Assembly: GCA_002726235.1 (NCBI GenBank)
Contig: PBSN01000008.1
Coordinates: 19,826 to 83,825, forward strand
Length of the DNA: 64,000 nucleotides
From: Nitrospiraceae bacterium
Lineage (GTDB): Bacteria > Nitrospirota > Nitrospiria > Nitrospirales > UBA2166
Reading direction: 5' to 3'
The stretch's first letter is position 1. Each line of letters opens with the position of its first letter. The translations under genes and the position numbers were made by a program. This document shows, piece by piece, positions 12,431 through 23,183 of this stretch. The notes below the pieces were generated by a model, which saw nothing but the letters and a program-made list of their open reading frames with translations, was not told the origin of the DNA and ran no database searches.

Positions 12431-15400
12431 GTGATACGTACAATAAGCATTAGATCACTGTTTGTACTGGTAGCCGGTGTGGTTGCCATCTTTGGAAGTG
12501 CAGTGCTCGCCGTGGGCCAGACATTTACGTCTACTGGCACCCTTACCGCACCACGAATCTTTCATACCGCCACATTGTTGCCGGATGGACGAGTGCTCCT
12601 CGCCGGTGGCTCGGATGCGGGGGCGACAGCGGAGCTGTTTGACCCAACGATTGCAGCGTTTTTTCCCGCGGGTAGCATGCTTACGACTCGTACTCTTCAT
12701 TCCGCAACTCTCCTGAATAATGGGCAGGTGCTCATCGCCGGCGGCGTGGGTAGTGGCGCATCAGCGGAGCTGTTTGACCCGGCGACTGGGATTTTCACCC
12801 CGACAGGTAGTCTGATCACGGCCCGGAGTAATCATACGGCGACTCTATTGCCCGATGGACACGTGCTCCTCGCCGGAGGAACGGGCGCGGATGGGTTGCC
12901 TCGCGCGACGGCCGAGCGCTATGATCCGCTAACCGGAACCTTTGCCGCGACGGGTAGTTTGACCTCTGTGCGAACGTTTCACCGCGCCACAATCCTTACG
13001 AATGGGCAGGTGCTCCTAACAGGAGGCGCTGAGGATGCGACGACGACCGAACTTTATGACCCTGCCACCGAGATCTTTACCCCTGCCAGCAACATGACGG
13101 AAGCCCGTAGCAACCATACTGCCACCCTGTTGTCCACTGGACAGGTGCTTATTGCGGGGGGTGCGGGAGAAGGGGGGCGGACGTTATCCTCCGCCGAACT
13201 GTTTGATCCAACAATAAACGCCTCTGGCCGTTTTGGGGTGTTTACGTCGACGGGTAGCTTGCTCACTGAGCGGCGAGATCCGACGGCAACGCTCTTATCA
13301 AATGGTCAGGTACTCGTTGCAGGAGGCTTGGCGGGAGGATCTACCGCGGAGCTCTTTGATCCGGCGACAGGCGTATTTTCCCCGACGGAACCTTTGACCA
13401 CGGAGCGTGCATTTCAGACAGCCACCCGTCTGCCCACTGGACAGGTACTGATTGCGGGGGGCGTTGGTGGCAGCACGACTGCCGAGTTCTTTGAGTTTGA
13501 GCTCTCCGCCTCTGTGCCAGAGGTGCTGGTTTCGTCTGAGCCGGATGTTGCGCTTGAGATGCTCATCAATGGTCGCTTTCTCGAAGCGGACAGTATGAGC
13601 GCAGCTCGCCAGAGCCATACGGCGACTCTTTTGTCGACGGGGCAGATCCTTGTCGCTGGAGGGATTGGTGGCAGCGCGACGGCCGAGCTGTTTGACACTG
13701 AATCCGAATCGTTTTTCCCGACAGGGTCCATGGCTGTGGCACGCCACGAGCATACGGCAGTGTCGTTGTCGGATGGCCGTGTGCTGATTGCCGGAGGATC
13801 AGGCGGCGGCGCAACGGCCGAGTTGTATGGGCTGGACACGGAGTCCTTCACTGCAACCGGGAACTTGACGACCGCCCGAAGCCGTCATACTGCTACCCGG
13901 CTGACTGATGGCCGTGTCCTCCTCACCGGTGGAATTAGCGAGGACGGCCGCACACTTTCCTCGGCCGAGGTGTTCGACCCGATCACGGGATCCTTCACCG
14001 CGACCGGCACCTTGACGACCGCCCGAAGTCGCCATACCGCCACATTGTTGACGGATGGCCGCGTGCTTCTCACCGGCGGCCTGGGCAACATCTTTGCACT
14101 TGCGACGGCTGAGGTGTTTGATCCGACCACGGGATTCTTCACCGCGACCGGCACCTTGACGATCGCTCGGAGTTTCCATACCGCTACACTGTTGCCTGAT
14201 GGCAGTGTCCTCGTCGCAGGCGGGGTCGCGCAGGACGCTTCGGTTGGTAAGACGGCCGAGCTGTTCAATCCAAGTACTGAATCATTCGTTCAGGCCGCTG
14301 ATATGACGCTGGCACGCGAACTTCATACGGCCACGTTGCTTCCGAGTGGGCACGTGATTCTCGCGGGCGGAGTTAGCGGCGGCGCAGAGGCATTCGATCC
14401 GGTGACGGCCTCATTCACTGCCCTTGCTTCGATGATGACACCGCGTCAATTGCACACGGCCACCTTGCTTCCGAGCGGGCAGTTGCTCTTGACAGGGGGT
14501 ATTGGCATTCTCGCTACCGCGGAGCTATTCGTGAAGTCTGCGCCTGATCTTGCCATGACCATTACAAAACTGAGACTGAAGGCAAAGGAAACGGGTAACA
14601 AGCTTAAAGTTAAAGTGACAATCGGAAATCTCGGGACGGAAATAGCCAACAGTCCATTTTCCGTTTCCTTATTCCTGTCCGATAATGAGAGTTTGGATGA
14701 GCAGGATGCCATTCTCCAAACCATCGCGATGGATGATGTCAGAGCTGGTGAAGAAGTGAATATGCAGTTTAAGGTCAAGGGCCTTGGAGCTATTGGCGGC
14801 ATGTTCGCAATTGTCACCCTTGATCCCGTTGCCGGCGAAGAGAATATGCAAAATAATGTCTTGGCTCAGCTTGTCGAGGAGCCCGCCCCCGTTACCTCTC
14901 TCGTGGCCGTCAGTACTGCTGGAGCCGGGAGCGGTGTGGTCAGCAGCACTCCAGAGGGTATCTTGTGTCCCATCGTTGCTTGCAGCAGCAACTTTACAGC
15001 CAACGCAAGCGTTCTTTTCACGGCCACAGCTGATCCGGGTTCTGTGTTCACGGGGTGGCTCGGCGACACGTGTAGTGTTGCCGTTATCGCCGATAATGGA
15101 TTGAGCGGAACCTGTCAGGTCCTTCAGTTGCTTGAGGACAGGTCGGTGATTGCATCCTTCGAGCTTGTGCTTGCCGAGATCGTGCCTGTTGAGACCACGC
15201 CTGTCGAGCCGGTGCCTGCTGTTGCGGGGCTGATTCTCACGGTCACCACGACGGGTGCAGGGACGGTTACGAGTATACCGGGAGGTATTGCGTGTGGGGC
15301 GGATTGTGCAGAAACCTATTCCCCAGGAGCCATCGTTATTTTGCAAGCAACTCCAGATGAAGGGTCAATATTTGTCGGATGGAGTGGCGGTGGGTGCGTA

Positions 15401-15478
15401 GGCACCGGGGACTGTTTCATGGACATGACAGACAACCAAACCGTGCTCGCTCAGTTCATAGGGGCAACATCGCCTTAG
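12431..15478 (+). CDS. Secreted kelch-repeat protein with CARDB and C-terminal bacterial repeat domains
   Basis: This 1015-residue exported protein starts with a signal peptide (about 1-30). I count 14 kelch-type repeats between about residues 31 and 698. Each contains a version of HTATLLPDGRVLLAGG followed by TAELFDP. A longer linker (about 13490-13576) separates repeats 7 and 8, so two seven-bladed propellers are likely. After them come a CARDB-like beta-sandwich (about 702-815) and two related domains (about 820-905 and 930-1010). Each of these carries a GxVxSxPxGIxC motif, paired cysteines and an FxGW core, like InlB-type bacterial repeats. Kelch propellers and CARDB domains usually serve binding or adhesion; no galactose-oxidase catalytic residues can be claimed. 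The GTG start follows GAGGGGG. The coding GC is higher than the AT-rich upstream DNA. Confidence 0.85.
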   Translation: MIRTISIRSLFVLVAGVVAIFGSAVLAVGQTFTSTGTLTAPRIFHTATLLPDGRVLLAGGSDAGATAELFDPTIAAFFPAGSMLTTRTLHSATLLNNGQVLIAGGVGSGASAELFDPATGIFTPTGSLITARSNHTATLLPDGHVLLAGGTGADGLPRATAERYDPLTGTFAATGSLTSVRTFHRATILTNGQVLLTGGAEDATTTELYDPATEIFTPASNMTEARSNHTATLLSTGQVLIAGGAGEGGRTLSSAELFDPTINASGRFGVFTSTGSLLTERRDPTATLLSNGQVLVAGGLAGGSTAELFDPATGVFSPTEPLTTERAFQTATRLPTGQVLIAGGVGGSTTAEFFEFELSASVPEVLVSSEPDVALEMLINGRFLEADSMSAARQSHTATLLSTGQILVAGGIGGSATAELFDTESESFFPTGSMAVARHEHTAVSLSDGRVLIAGGSGGGATAELYGLDTESFTATGNLTTARSRHTATRLTDGRVLLTGGISEDGRTLSSAEVFDPITGSFTATGTLTTARSRHTATLLTDGRVLLTGGLGNIFALATAEVFDPTTGFFTATGTLTIARSFHTATLLPDGSVLVAGGVAQDASVGKTAELFNPSTESFVQAADMTLARELHTATLLPSGHVILAGGVSGGAEAFDPVTASFTALASMMTPRQLHTATLLPSGQLLLTGGIGILATAELFVKSAPDLAMTITKLRLKAKETGNKLKVKVTIGNLGTEIANSPFSVSLFLSDNESLDEQDAILQTIAMDDVRAGEEVNMQFKVKGLGAIGGMFAIVTLDPVAGEENMQNNVLAQLVEEPAPVTSLVAVSTAGAGSGVVSSTPEGILCPIVACSSNFTANASVLFTATADPGSVFTGWLGDTCSVAVIADNGLSGTCQVLQLLEDRSVIASFELVLAEIVPVETTPVEPVPAVAGLILTVTTTGAGTVTSIPGGIACGADCAETYSPGAIVILQATPDEGSIFVGWSGGGCVGTGDCFMDMTDNQTVLAQFIGATSP
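13990..14190 (+). repeat. Near-identical DNA repeats in kelch units 10-12
   Basis: Kelch units 10, 11 and 12 share long stretches at DNA level. For example, ACCGCGACCGGCACCTTGAC occurs at about 13999 and again at about 14142. The other kelch units are far more diverged. This suggests recent unit duplication or gene conversion in this part of the gene. Confidence 0.6.
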
Positions 15479-16501: not shown

Positions 16502-16577
16502 GGCGGCGTACCCAAGTGGTTAAGGGAGCAGTCTGCAAAACTGCGATTCAGCGGTTCGATTCCGCTCGCCGCCTCCA
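16502..16577 (+). tRNA. tRNA-Cys (anticodon GCA)
   Basis: A full cloverleaf can be drawn. The acceptor stem GGCGGCG (16502-16508) pairs with CGCCGCC (16567-16573). The anticodon stem GCAGT/ACTGC encloses the loop CTGCAAA with anticodon GCA at 16535-16537. A T-loop GGTTCGATTCC follows. The discriminator base is T and the CCA end is encoded (16575-16577). It lies 15 bp after the sulfite-oxidase-like gene. Confidence 0.97.
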
Positions 16578-16865: not shown

Positions 16866-18929
16866 ATGATGGAAATGGATTTGACGGGAATAACGGTTCT
16901 GGTTTCGATCGTGTGCAGCATGATTGGCATCGGGTATGCTGCGTATTTGACCATGTGGGTTCTGAAACGTGATGAGGGCAATGAAAAGATGAAGAGTATT
17001 GCGCGGGCTATTCAGGAAGGTGCACGCGCGTATCTTAATCGTCAGTACGGCACCGTCGCAGTGGTGGCAGCGGTCATGGCTGTGCTGTTGTGGCTTGTGT
17101 TTGACTGGCTGACCGCAGTTGGGTTTCTTATCGGGGCGGTGGCCTCGGCTTTTGCCGGCTATGTTGGGATGCATATGGCTGTTCGAGCCAATGTTCGGAC
17201 CGCACAAGATGCCCATGATGGCCTCGACCCAGCGTTGCGGGTCGCGTTTCGTGGGGGTGCCGTAACCGGATTGTTGTTGATCGGCCTTGGACTGCTCTCG
17301 GTGGCCGGATTTTACGCCTTCGCGGAGTTTATTACAGAAGGCCCGAAAGGCGCGGTGCATGCTCTTATCGGTTTAGCATTTGGTGGAAGCCTCATCAGCG
17401 TATTTGCTAGGGTCGGTGGGGGGATTTTCACCAAAGCGGCTGATGTTGGTGCCGATCTCGTTGGAAAAGTTGAAGCGGGTATTCCAGAAGATGATCCAAG
17501 AAATCCTGCGGTGATTGCGGATAATGTTGGGGACAACGTTGGCGATTGTGCTGGTATGGCGGCGGATCTGTTTGAAACCTACGTGGTCACGACTGTTGCT
17601 GCGATGGTATTGGCAGTCTCGTTATTTCCAGGTCAACTGGAACCCGTCCTCTATCCTCTGCTTTTGGGCGCTGTCGCGATTCTTGCCACCGTTGTTGGTA
17701 TTTGGTTTGTACGTGTGGGTGCAGGTGGGAGCATTATGGCGGCGCTCTACAAGGGGCTGGCGGTTGCAGGTATTGGATCCGGCATTGCATTCTATCCCAT
17801 TACGAACATGCTGATGGATGGCGTTGGTGGTTTTTCTGGTCTTGCATATTTTGGCACAGCAGTTATTGGACTCGTCGTTACACTCGCTATGGTCGTCATT
17901 ACGGATTATTACACGTCAACGGAATACGCTCCGGTGCGTGAAGTTGCACAAGCCAGTACCACCGGTCACGCAACCAATATCATCTCCGGGTTAGCGGTAA
18001 GTCTTCAATCCACTGCGCTTCCGGTCATCGTGATCGGGGCGGCGATCTTGGGAAGTTTTCATCTAGCAGGTCTATATGGTGTCGGTGTCGCAGCTGTAGC
18101 GATGTTGTCGATGGCAGGGATTATAGTTGCCATCGATGCGTTTGGTCCCATCACGGATAATGCGGGTGGTATTGCTGAAATGGCGGGTCTTCCTGAGGAG
18201 GTGCGCAATATTACCGATCCGCTCGATGCAGTGGGGAATACCACGAAAGCGGTGACCAAGGGATATGCGATTGGGTCGGCTGCTCTCGCCGCGATCGTGT
18301 TGTTTTCCGAGTATGCCCGCGAAGTGGTTCCCAGTGCGGAGGGGCAATCTGTGTCTTTTGATCTCGCTGATCCCTTGGTTATCGTGGGGCTGTTTCTCGG
18401 CGGGATGCTTCCGTTTCTCTTTGGCTCACTGTGCATGAAAGCGGTTGGTGAGGCAGGAGGCTTGGTTGTTGAGGAAGTCCGCCGGCAGTTTCGCGAGGTT
18501 AAGGGCATTATGGATGGAAGTGGAAAACCTGAGTACGGGAAATGTGTCGATATTGTGACCAAAGCCGCGATCAAAAAAATGATGATTCCTGGTCTTATTC
18601 CTGTCGTTGCTCCAATTTTAGTTGGGGTGATTCTTGGGCCAATTGCACTTGGGGCAATGCTCGTCGGCACGATTATCACGGGCCTGTTTGTCGCAATTTC
18701 CATGACGAGTGGCGGTGGGGCGTGGGATAACGCGAAGAAGTACATTGAAGATGGCCACCATGGTGGGAAACAAAGTCTTGCTCATCAGGCTGCGGTTACT
18801 GGGGATACCGTAGGAGATCCGTACAAAGACACGGCTGGACCGGCAATCAATCCGATGATTAAGGTTGTCAATATCGTTGCGCTGATGATTGTTGCCAAAC
18901 TGGGAGCCGATGGATTGCTCGGTCTATGA
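16866..18929 (+). CDS. hppA: HppA, membrane H+-translocating pyrophosphatase (K+-independent type)
   Basis: This integral membrane pump of 687 residues and about 16 TM helices couples pyrophosphate hydrolysis to ion transport across the cytoplasmic membrane. The catalytic [11 protein letters not shown] is followed by [12 protein letters not shown]. The C-terminal [18 protein letters not shown] block is also present. The subfamily marker region reads [14 protein letters not shown]. The Lys after GNTT, together with the following Thr, marks K+-independent H+-pumping enzymes; K+-dependent ones have Ala there. The ATG at 16866 has GAGGGAGG upstream. The gene precedes pup and recJ on the same strand. 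Confidence 0.95.
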
Positions 18930-19002
18930 TCGCGTGAGGATGTTTGCGGATGGTGTTTGTATGTAGCCTAATGTAGGGATCGCATACGAGGGAAGGCGGA
19001 AT

Positions 19003-19200
19003 ATGGAACAACGGCAGAAATCGTATGACGCAAGTAAGAGTAGCGATCCTGAACAGGATGCGACCCAAAGTCAGACCGTCATTGAGACGGGAGAAAAACT
19101 CAAGCAGGACATCGATTCCCTCATTGATGAGATTGACGCGGTCTTGGAGGAGAATGCCGAAGAGTTCGTGAAGAATTACATTCAGAAAGGTGGGGAATAG
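19003..19200 (+). CDS. pup: Pup, prokaryotic ubiquitin-like protein
   Basis: The 65-residue protein has every feature of Pup: a polar, disordered N-terminal half and a coiled-coil-forming core DSLIDEIDAVLEENAEEF. It ends in QKGGE, compared with LLDEIDDVLEENAEDF and QKGGQ in Mycobacterium. Pup is attached through its C-terminal Glu to lysines by PafA, and Mpa/ARC feeds tagged proteins to the 20S proteasome. Because this Pup already ends in Glu, deamidation by Dop should not be needed, as in Corynebacterium. The ATG at 19003 has GGAAGGCGG upstream. recJ starts 5 bp after the stop. None of mpa, dop, pafA, prcA or prcB lies in this window. Confidence 0.92.
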   Translation: MEQRQKSYDASKSSDPEQDATQSQTVIETGEKLKQDIDSLIDEIDAVLEENAEEFVKNYIQKGGE

Positions 19201-19205
19201 GGTTC

Positions 19206-20948
19206 TTGTCACGTGTTGTCCGTCAAAAAGAATGGAACATTCCACAACGAAATAGCGATGTAGAGCGGCAGCTTGTTGAGTTGGCGAATATCGGTTCCGT
19301 CACAGCGTCGGTCCTGGTGTCGAGGGGCGTGGTTACTGCGGAGCAGGCGCTGAGTCAACTTACCGGGCGTGGGGAAATTCTCCACGATCCCTTCCTCATT
19401 CCTGACATGGAGCGGGCAGTCGATCGTATGAGGCAAGCCATTCAAGGGCAGGAGCGTGTTCTTATTTATGGTGACTACGACGTCGATGGAATCACCTCAA
19501 CAAGCCTGTATGTTGAATTCTTTCGTGCGCATGGACTCGAAGTCGCATACCAACTGCCGCATCGATTTCGGGATGGTTATGGCTTCAATATGGATACCAT
19601 CACTCAATTTCGAGACCGTGAAATCTCATTATTGATTACGACTGATTGTGGCACGACATCTCGGAATGAGGTGGCATATGCTGGGACATGTGGGATTGAT
19701 GTGATCATTGCCGATCACCATGAGCCCGGCGATGATGGCCTGCCTCATGCTCTCGCCTTGTTAAATCCCTGCCGAGCAGATTCATCGTATCCCTTCCGAG
19801 GTTTGTGTTCCTGTGCCATTGCCTTCAAAGTCGCCATGGCGTACGACCAGAAATATAACGGCGATATTGATAGCCATGTCGTCGATTTTGAATTGCGAGA
19901 CGGCCTAGATCTTGTGGCGTTGGCAACCATTGCCGACATGGCACCATTGGTCAATGAGAATCGCACGCTGGTCTGTGAGGGATTAAAACGGCTCTCCACC
20001 GATGAACGTGTGGGGATCAAAGCATTGAAGAACGTTGCGAACGTGTCTGGTACCTGTCGTGCAGAGACGATTGGGTTTACGCTAGCACCTCGGATTAATG
20101 CTGCGGGCCGGATGGACGATGCAAAAATTGGTGTTCGTCTTCTCACAACACACTCGTTGGATGAGGCTCATGCGATTGCGTCCAAGATGAATCGTTTCAA
20201 TGATGAGAGAAAGCGGGCGCAGCATGAGACAGAACTAGAAGTCGAGGGAATGCTGAGTCAATTGCACGATGGCTCTGGCCCAATTGTTGTAAGCGGTATT
20301 GGGTGGCATATGGGTGTGGTTGGCATTGTTGCAGCTCACATGGCCGAACGATATTATCGCCCTGTCGTTGTCATTGCCCTGAATGAGAATGGGATCGGTC
20401 GCGGATCTGCGCGTAGCATTCCAGAGTTCGATCTGTTTCATGGAATAAACCAATGCCGCATGCATCTGGACGCGTTTGGAGGCCATAAGTTTGCCGCCGG
20501 ATTGACAATTCGGCAGGAAAAGATTCCGGCTTTTCGAGAGGCGTTTACTGCGGTTGTCCATGAGGCGATGAATGGAGCCGATCCTGTGCCTCGCATCAAT
20601 ATTGATGCCGAGGTTGATCTTGGCGAGATTTCCTTCGGAGTGGTTGATGAACTTTCAGCTCTTGGTCCATTTGGAACGAAGAACCCAGAACCCATTCTGG
20701 CCGCTAGTTATGTACACGTAAGTTCTTATCGACGCGTTGGCCAGGGGCATCTGAGCCTTACATTTCGTTCTCGGAGTGGGGCTACGTACGATGCGATAGG
20801 ATTTGGGATGAGTGGGCTGCTGGATGATGGTACGATTGCTCGAGGCCCTGTTGATGCTGCCTTTAAGGTGGGGAGGGATTCTTGGCGTGGAACTGATCGC
20901 TTGCGCTTACAACTTGTCGATGTTCGCCCGAGCTGTGGAATCGCATAG
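19206..20948 (+). CDS. recJ: RecJ, single-stranded-DNA-specific 5'-3' exonuclease
   Basis: RecJ degrades single-stranded DNA in recombination and mismatch repair. The DHH-family motifs appear in order: GDYDVDGITS (89-98), TTDCGT (145-150), ADHHEP (169-174), and NAAGRMDDAKIG in the middle. The DHHA1 motif GGHKFAAGLTI and a C-terminal OB-like domain complete the 580 residues, the usual length. The TTG start at 19206 is five bases after the pup stop and follows GGTGGGGAATAGGG, so recJ probably shares the pup transcript. Confidence 0.95.
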   Translation: MSRVVRQKEWNIPQRNSDVERQLVELANIGSVTASVLVSRGVVTAEQALSQLTGRGEILHDPFLIPDMERAVDRMRQAIQGQERVLIYGDYDVDGITSTSLYVEFFRAHGLEVAYQLPHRFRDGYGFNMDTITQFRDREISLLITTDCGTTSRNEVAYAGTCGIDVIIADHHEPGDDGLPHALALLNPCRADSSYPFRGLCSCAIAFKVAMAYDQKYNGDIDSHVVDFELRDGLDLVALATIADMAPLVNENRTLVCEGLKRLSTDERVGIKALKNVANVSGTCRAETIGFTLAPRINAAGRMDDAKIGVRLLTTHSLDEAHAIASKMNRFNDERKRAQHETELEVEGMLSQLHDGSGPIVVSGIGWHMGVVGIVAAHMAERYYRPVVVIALNENGIGRGSARSIPEFDLFHGINQCRMHLDAFGGHKFAAGLTIRQEKIPAFREAFTAVVHEAMNGADPVPRINIDAEVDLGEISFGVVDELSALGPFGTKNPEPILAASYVHVSSYRRVGQGHLSLTFRSRSGATYDAIGFGMSGLLDDGTIARGPVDAAFKVGRDSWRGTDRLRLQLVDVRPSCGIA

Positions 20949-20987: not shown

Positions 20988-23183
20988 GTGAGTGTCCTAG
21001 CATTAGAATGTGATCGTATTGAGGACGTGATTGGCCGAGTCCTCGCGTATCATCCGACCGCCGATGTCGATCTTCTTCAACGTGCCTATGACTTTTCTGC
21101 ACGAGCACATGAGGGGCAACAGCGTCTCTCAGGTGAACCATATCTCAAGCATCCGCTTGCGGTTGCGTCGGTCCTCTGCGCACTACGACTCGATGTTCCA
21201 CCTATTGCTGCTGGGCTTCTTCATGATGTGGTTGAAGATACGGTTTGCACCTTCGAGTGTCTTGAGAATGAATTTGGTGAAGAAATTGCTCGTTTGGTTG
21301 ACGGGGTCACCAAGATTGGAAAAGTCGAATTTAAGAGTGATGAAGAAAAACAAGCTGAGAATTTTAGGAAGATGCTTCTGTCGATGGCCGATGATATTCG
21401 AGTCATTATCATTAAGCTTGCCGACCGCCTTCACAATATGCAAACACTCAACCATCTACACCCAACACGTAAGGCAGAAATTGTCCGTGAGACGCTAGAG
21501 ATTTATGCCCCGTTGGCGAATCGTCTTGGGATTGGGTGGATAAAAAATTCACTGGAAGATTTGTGCCTCAAGTCGTTGTGGCCAGAGAAATATGAAATGC
21601 TTAGCAAGAAGGTGGCCAAACGGATTCAAGAGCGAGAAGCCTATGTCGATGAGGTTACGGAATTTGTCAGTCAAAAGCTTCTGGAGCAAGGGATCAAAGC
21701 AGATATCACAGGTCGACCAAAGCATCTTTATAGCATTTACCAGAAGATGGAGACGCAAGGGATTTTATTCGAGGAAGTATACGATTTGACCGCTATCCGT
21801 GTGACTACCGACACTCTGATTAATTGTTATGGCATCTTAGGGATTGTTCACTCACTGTGGCGGCCAGTTCCTGGTCGATTTAAGGATTATATTGGTGTCC
21901 CCAAGTCTAATCTCTATCAATCTCTCCATACCACGGTGGCAGGACCGAGTGGAGAGCATGTGGAGTTTCAGATTCGTACTGAGGCAATGCATCGTGTTGC
22001 GGAAGAAGGGATCGCTGCCCACTGGCGATATAAGGACAAAGGTAAAGTTAATACAAATGACGAAAAGATCTTTACGTGGTTGCGCCAATTGGTGGAATGG
22101 CACCGTGATCTTTCGGACAATCGCCAGTTTATGAATTCAGTCAAACTTGGTCTGTATGCCGATGTGATTTATGTCTTTACGCCTGAAGGTGCTGTCAAAG
22201 AGCTTCCCGCAGGTGCAACGTCAATCGATTTTGCCTATGCGGTTCATACCGAGGTCGGTCACCATTATTTTGGTGCGAAGGTAAACGGAAAGATCGTGCC
22301 GCCGTCCACGACGTTACATAGTGGTGATTCAGTGGAAATTCTAACTTCCACGACGAGTGTTCCAAGTAAGGATTGGTTGAAGTTTGTCCAAACCCCATCG
22401 GCTAAAACGAAGATAAAACACTGGATTCGTGATGCAGAGCGAGTGCGCAACGTTGCCCTTGGGAAGAAACTGGTTGAAAAAGAAATGCGTCGGCAAGGTA
22501 TGACGCATCGCGAATTGATAGAAATTCAGGAATTTTCTGTCCTCGCAAAACACATTGGGTTCCAGTCTACAGAGGAACTGCTAGGAGCTGTCAGCGTAGG
22601 AAAGGTTTCTGTTTCGCAAGTTGTAAAATGGATGATGGATAAGTTGAAAGGGGGGACTGGTGTCGATGATGGTGAACTCTTGCCGCATGATCGAAGCGTC
22701 AAGGTTCGAGGTGCGAGTGGGCTTCTATTTCACTTTTCGCGTTGCTGTAATCCTGTTCCCGGAGATCATATATTTGGATTTATAACCCGTGGACGTGGAA
22801 TTTCAATTCACGCCTCATGGTGTCATAACTTAGATATTTTAGAATGCCATAAAGAGCGGTTTGTGGATGCGGAATGGGATGTTTTGTGTGATCGCACCCA
22901 CCGAGCGGGCATCTCCGTCTTGACGGTGAATCGACCGGGCCTTTTGGCCAGCGTGTCCTCTACCATTACAGCGGGGAATGTCAATATTACTTCTGCTGAT
23001 ATCGCAGAGACCCATGATGCGAAGGCTGCACAGAATTTCGTCGTTGAGGTGCGGCATGCGTCTCAGTTGGAGCTAGTGATTAAAAGTGTTGCGGAACTTG
23101 AGGGCGTGTTTTACGCGAAACGCGTCCCAGTCCGTCCCTTTGGCTCTCATCGATTTCGACGTTCCCTTCCTCCCAAGTCGTAA
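20988..23183 (+). CDS. rel: Rel/SpoT bifunctional (p)ppGpp synthetase/hydrolase
   Basis: This 731-residue protein makes and degrades the alarmone (p)ppGpp. The hydrolase domain is intact, with LLHDVVEDT at 78-86 supplying the HD and ED metal residues. The synthetase region contains RFKDYIGVPK near residue 295; the RxKD form is that of bifunctional Rel/SpoT enzymes, whereas synthetase-only RelA has ExDD. A TGS domain (about 395-455), a zinc-finger-like segment with CCNPVPGD, and a C-terminal ACT domain (about 655-725) follow. The start is GTG at 20988. No second rel gene is seen here. Confidence 0.95.
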   Translation: MSVLALECDRIEDVIGRVLAYHPTADVDLLQRAYDFSARAHEGQQRLSGEPYLKHPLAVASVLCALRLDVPPIAAGLLHDVVEDTVCTFECLENEFGEEIARLVDGVTKIGKVEFKSDEEKQAENFRKMLLSMADDIRVIIIKLADRLHNMQTLNHLHPTRKAEIVRETLEIYAPLANRLGIGWIKNSLEDLCLKSLWPEKYEMLSKKVAKRIQEREAYVDEVTEFVSQKLLEQGIKADITGRPKHLYSIYQKMETQGILFEEVYDLTAIRVTTDTLINCYGILGIVHSLWRPVPGRFKDYIGVPKSNLYQSLHTTVAGPSGEHVEFQIRTEAMHRVAEEGIAAHWRYKDKGKVNTNDEKIFTWLRQLVEWHRDLSDNRQFMNSVKLGLYADVIYVFTPEGAVKELPAGATSIDFAYAVHTEVGHHYFGAKVNGKIVPPSTTLHSGDSVEILTSTTSVPSKDWLKFVQTPSAKTKIKHWIRDAERVRNVALGKKLVEKEMRRQGMTHRELIEIQEFSVLAKHIGFQSTEELLGAVSVGKVSVSQVVKWMMDKLKGGTGVDDGELLPHDRSVKVRGASGLLFHFSRCCNPVPGDHIFGFITRGRGISIHASWCHNLDILECHKERFVDAEWDVLCDRTHRAGISVLTVNRPGLLASVSSTITAGNVNITSADIAETHDAKAAQNFVVEVRHASQLELVIKSVAELEGVFYAKRVPVRPFGSHRFRRSLPPKS

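Follow-up and report, generated by a model that had tools for sequence, protein, structure and literature searches.

A pup gene located between hppA and recJ–relA in Nitrospirales, apart from its likely proteasome cluster

Genes for the prokaryotic ubiquitin-like protein Pup are expected beside the enzymes and proteasome subunits that use the tag. The window analyzed here (the whole stretch of 64,000 nucleotides) carries instead a pup gene between hppA and recJ. Which machinery, if any, does this gene serve, and how did it come to stand where it does? Judging from the genes and relatives compared below, it is very probably the sole functional pup of its genome, which left the dop–prcB slot once, on the stem of the Nitrospirales, an order of nitrite oxidizers, and most likely provides the tag for a machinery encoded on a distant contig, C7.

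The pup gene and the distant proteasome cluster

The pup gene and its neighborhood in the window comprise the following elements:

16866–18929, + strand: hppA, membrane pyrophosphatase (PF03030, 898 bits), the upstream neighbor in most of the order
18930–19002, + strand: hppA–pup spacer of 73 bp, whose purine-rich stretch (gggaaggcgg) upstream of the pup ATG resembles a ribosome-binding site
19003–19200, + strand: pup, prokaryotic ubiquitin-like protein, 65 aa, ATG start, core VLEENAEEF, C-terminus QKGGE
19206–20948, + strand: recJ, single-strand-specific exonuclease (TTG start; TIGR00644, 516.4 bits), downstream neighbor with no functional part
20988–23183, + strand: relA/spoT, (p)ppGpp synthetase/hydrolase (TIGR00691, 757.7 bits), downstream neighbor

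The first-pass annotation had recognized Pup by its core and C-terminal end, and the translated protein (MEQRQKSY...VLEENAEEFVKNYIQKGGE) indeed matches the Pfam family PF05639 (E=6e-21, 75.6 bits with a cut-off of 27) and the NCBIfam family TIGR03687 (61.8 bits with a cut-off of 41.45), as well as the solved Pup chain 3m9d in a phmmer search (E=8e-11). PF05639 is its only Pfam match, and the UBact model (PF20513) does not recognize it. Besides scoring above the curated cut-offs, the protein falls within the Pup size range of 50–90 aa and carries the C-terminal G[EQ] signature (PMC2588565). The occurrence of Pup in Nitrospirae, also stated in that annotation, was already known (PMC2588565, PMC7947786). 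The C-terminal half of Pup is almost invariant between genera, and codon substitutions between three genomes of the window's genus (G000, which is the window's own assembly, G001 and G002) give a pup dN/dS of 0.07–0.11; since this shows purifying selection within the genus, the gene is not a chance ORF. We regard the window Pup as genuine and probably active.

The placement of pup 5 bp before recJ was likewise correct, with hppA ending at 18929 and recJ starting at 19206. A pattern scan identified neither a terminator-like nor a + strand sigma-70-like site in the hppA–pup spacer, and no convincing promoter or terminator candidate close to pup. A tRNA gene at 16502–16574 lies directly upstream of hppA and might mark a point of recombination close to the relocated pup. 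Positions 12431–15478 of the window encode a 1015-aa protein with many Kelch repeats and InlB-type repeats at its end.

The absence of partner genes around pup, as first described, holds for the window, where no prcA/prcB, dop, pafA or arc was recognized by reading among the ORFs of at least 230 aa, but not for the genome. Genome-wide family searches mapped dop, pafA and prcBA to another contig, C7, on which an intact arc/mpa–dop–prcB–prcA–pafA cluster occupies positions 71136–77261 on one strand and almost without gaps:

L007:5137–6873 (G000, C7): arc/mpa, proteasome ATPase (TIGR03689, 714 bits, over the cut-off)
L007:6908–8416 (G000, C7): dop (TIGR03688, 544 bits, over the cut-off)
L007:8331–9221 (G000, C7): ORF of prcB, 20S beta subunit (TIGR03690, 282 bits, over the cut-off)
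L007:9218–9898 (G000, C7): prcA, 20S alpha subunit (TIGR03691, 286 bits, over the cut-off)
L007:9895–11262 (G000, C7): pafA, Pup ligase (TIGR03686, 546.8 bits with a cut-off of 551.3)

All the genes that the first-pass annotation proposed to look for (pafA, dop, mpa/arc and prcAB) are therefore present, and its suggestion of a dispersed pathway agrees with this intact cluster and with the lack of a second pup. TIGR03686 is the best NCBIfam match of PafA, though the score lies 4.5 bits below the strict cut-off. The two PF03136 genes on C7 are those of Dop and PafA, and both proteins retain the G-h-E-x-E motif and an LYxD...HPEY stretch that aligns with the solved Dop. The ATPase and both 20S subunits are recognized by their bacterial proteasome families (TIGR03689, TIGR03690 and TIGR03691). 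The ARC protein ends in GHYL, close to the C-terminal GQYL of Mpa.

Between dop and prcB on C7 there is no pup, nor is there room for a hidden one, because the two genes overlap. The assembly lacks a pup adjoining pafA, dop or prcB: its single pup lies on contig C8 and the cluster on C7, in an assembly of 1.87 Mb and 27 contigs with an estimated completeness of 90.65%, so that a second pup could still be present in the missing sequence. No second copy was found in any relative of the order. The two observations named beforehand as arguments against an active tag, namely a second pup at a standard proteasome locus and a missing pafA, were not made in this assembly, in which pafA resides on C7.

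Order-wide position and a likely single relocation

Among 57 genomes of the same order, pup was detected in 55, the window's own included, which represent 16 genera. In all 55 it is followed by recJ or relA: recJ lies downstream in 50 genomes, while in the other five relA is the next recognized gene and recJ was not seen. An hppA gene is located at most 1 kb upstream of pup in 42 of the 55, was not seen upstream in 12, and is far off in one. Neither dop nor prcB occurs in the flanks read around pup in any of these genomes (0/55), and in the corresponding Nitrospirales proteasome clusters dop runs into prcB without pup. The same pup neighborhood was found, wherever the contig reaches, at 80 loci of named genomes from Nitrospira and other Nitrospirales/Nitrospirota records, for example in Nitrospira moscoviensis (NZ_CP011801). 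These nitrifiers would be mistaken for Pup-less by any search limited to the proteasome locus. A literature search that did not extend to the original UBact paper, where a prior mention is possible, found no description of this position; the gene organization is new, while the system itself was already known.

Candidate pup losses in G208, G377, G010, G022, G280 and G390 were rejected, as relA and/or recJ in these genomes was not detected, is incomplete or lies at the edge of a contig; they are not counted as losses because assembly gaps are the likelier cause. In the single-contig genome G024, pup (L060, 3095–3310, − strand) has a small duplication-like insert (ALGENAVKENAAEF) and a lower score of 43 bits.

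The Pup-proteasome systems of Actinobacteria and of other Nitrospirota (arc/mpa–dop–pup–prcB–prcA–pafA) share homologous Pup, Dop, PafA, ARC/Mpa and PrcBA with the Nitrospirales, as well as the G[EQ] end and, apart from pup, the gene order, whereas across the Nitrospirales pup lies outside the cluster, between hppA and recJ–relA. Within the class, pup is found between dop and prcB in families f5 to f13 where this region was read, and the same slot is occupied in families f14, f21 and f22 of the phylum; in family f26, pup adjoins only a divergent pafA (L258). The recJ–relA pair already exists in outgroups, with neither pup nor hppA in the approximately 1.4 kb read upstream, and is preceded in one of them by a der-like GTPase gene. 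We built a tree of PafA; Pup, at 65 aa, carries little tree signal. The PafA tree contains 36 rows, seven of them assigned the relocated state (five of these show pup; G022 and G280 do not, owing to contig ends), and this state forms one side of a single branch with an SH-aLRT of 97. One change of place is sufficient, which makes a single relocation of pup, at the stem of the Nitrospirales, the most likely history. As for an acquisition of pup from another lineage, the tree of its partner PafA is consistent with vertical descent.

The most probable scenario is that pup left the dop–prcB slot once, was set between hppA and recJ–relA, and stayed there. The gene would now be expressed from the hppA–recJ–relA region, and PafA would link the C-terminal Glu of Pup to lysines in target proteins, from which Dop would remove the tag. 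ARC/Mpa would recognize Pup and feed the targets to the PrcBA 20S proteasome for presumed degradation.

Possible meanings of the new neighborhood

Pup may have been kept in the hppA...relA region of energy and stringent-response genes so that tag output follows signals of starvation, with the enzymes under separate regulation. The retention of pup beside relA when recJ is lost, and beside hppA in most genomes, agrees with this idea, and in mycobacteria the Pup-proteasome system supports amino-acid recycling under nitrogen starvation (PMC8223512). However, hppA was not seen upstream in a dozen genomes and is remote in another, and the old recJ–relA pair may simply mark a stable region, so we consider this explanation unlikely. 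Similarly doubtful is its more specific form, in which tag supply, rather than enzyme level, would set pupylation under energy or amino-acid starvation through co-expression with hppA–recJ–relA, with UBact acting in parallel in many of these bacteria.

The first-pass annotation linked Pup to DNA repair through co-transcription with recJ, which might coordinate tagging with repair; alternatively, RecJ might be a dedicated target. Within the window's genus, pup–recJ spacers of 4, 5, 5 and 15 bp (the last by alignment) would fit such a link, as would the presence of recJ downstream in most of the order; in mycobacteria, PafBC connects pupylation with the DNA-damage response (PMC8223512). The spacing of 4–5 bp, however, is confined to the window's genus. 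Elsewhere it is mostly 80–230 bp or more, with median values of 184 bp in family f3, 178 bp in f4 and 663 bp in f2, where a gene for a 174-aa protein separates pup from recJ. Moreover, two single-contig genomes without detectable recJ (G042 and G052) keep pup before relA, recJ stays open beside a decaying pup in G003 (see below), and the recJ–relA pair is older than its association with pup, being present without it outside the order. A tie to RecJ is accordingly very improbable. The adjacency is probably a matter of positional history, although their spacing makes co-transcription of pup and recJ plausible within the window's genus.

With the TIGR00644 model, recJ was undetectable in genera g13 and g16 (G042, G052, G029 and G048), while 13 of 14 control genomes matched; these four genomes have apparently lost a widespread repair gene. 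The 174-aa protein of family f2 (L199:4706–5230 and L058:3280–3804) has a signal-peptide-like start, and its L199 copy has no match in Pfam or NCBIfam.

Losses of the tag, the UBact system and the C-terminal residue

Two relatives have lost the cluster, and since the flanking genes are assembled in both, the losses are taken to be real. In G003, which belongs to the window's genus and is 96% complete, arc, dop, prcB, prcA and most of pafA were deleted in place, between intact hemE–hemY–thiG–thiE genes on one side and M23–dsrE–znuBCA on the other. A stop-ridden 105-codon end of pafA remains between thiE and the M23 peptidase gene (L203:9976–10348), and the sole proteasome-family match in this genome appears, from its score and length, to be of the HslV type. 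The pup gene of G003, located on a contig apart from the cluster site, has a GTG start, two lost residues, an altered core and the end QQGRG, so that its product lacks the terminal Glu or Gln required for ligation. Its identity to the window pup is 49%, compared with 77% for recJ and 91% for relA. In the second genome, G327, from another family and 91% complete, the Pup cluster is absent, and neither pup nor a recognizable remnant was found in the hppA–recJ spacer, while hppA, recJ, relA and a UBact cluster are retained.

As the two machinery-less relatives have also lost a usable tag, pup appears to still serve the distant enzyme and proteasome cluster; its fate follows that cluster rather than recJ or UBact, a link based on two natural losses that arose independently, of which that in G327 comes from a genome 91% complete. 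Tag and pupylation machinery can therefore be genetically separate across a whole order and yet be kept together by selection, and the cluster-less relatives represent natural knock-outs.

The UBact system resembles the Pup-proteasome system in that a short tag suited to ligation goes together with genes of the PafA/Dop-like, ARC-like and 20S types, but it belongs to another tag family, has its own enzymes and encodes the tag inside its own cluster. In many Nitrospirales a UBact-type cluster co-exists with Pup in one genome, which makes tag–ligase specificity testable; the two systems also occur together in further orders of the phylum. An example is the second cluster arc2–dop2–UBact–prcB2–prcA2–pafA2 of G038 (L117:7655–14430), also seen at L118, L119, L279 and L283–L290.

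The presence of two PafA/Dop pairs in many relatives, one of them with UBact, could suggest that the window Pup is a second or stand-alone tag, as the first-pass annotation had alternatively proposed, or the conjugation partner of UBact-type enzymes instead of those of the Pup cluster. This is extremely unlikely: no UBact tag (PF20513 / NF033388) was found in the window's assembly, which has a single PafA/Dop pair and in which this pup is the only one; the complete genome G009 has pup and one pair but no UBact; every UBact-type cluster examined has its own tag gene; and of the cluster-less relatives, G327 keeps UBact without pup, whereas the pup of G003 is eroded. That the window ORF, short and remote from its cluster, arose by chance or is a non-functional relic can be practically dismissed, given its profile scores well over the cut-offs, the purifying selection, the near-invariant C-terminal half and the very different look of the true relic in G003.

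By the established chemistry of the tag, Pup ending in Glu should not require deamidation, and the Glu terminus first noted in the window is real. Dop is kept in this genome although its Pup ends in Glu, as expected for depupylation. The C-terminal residue is Glu in 48 of the 54 intact copies of the order and Gln in six, the latter from four different genera, of which g3 is mixed. Because of these six Gln-ending copies, the Glu terminus is a variable trait in the order.
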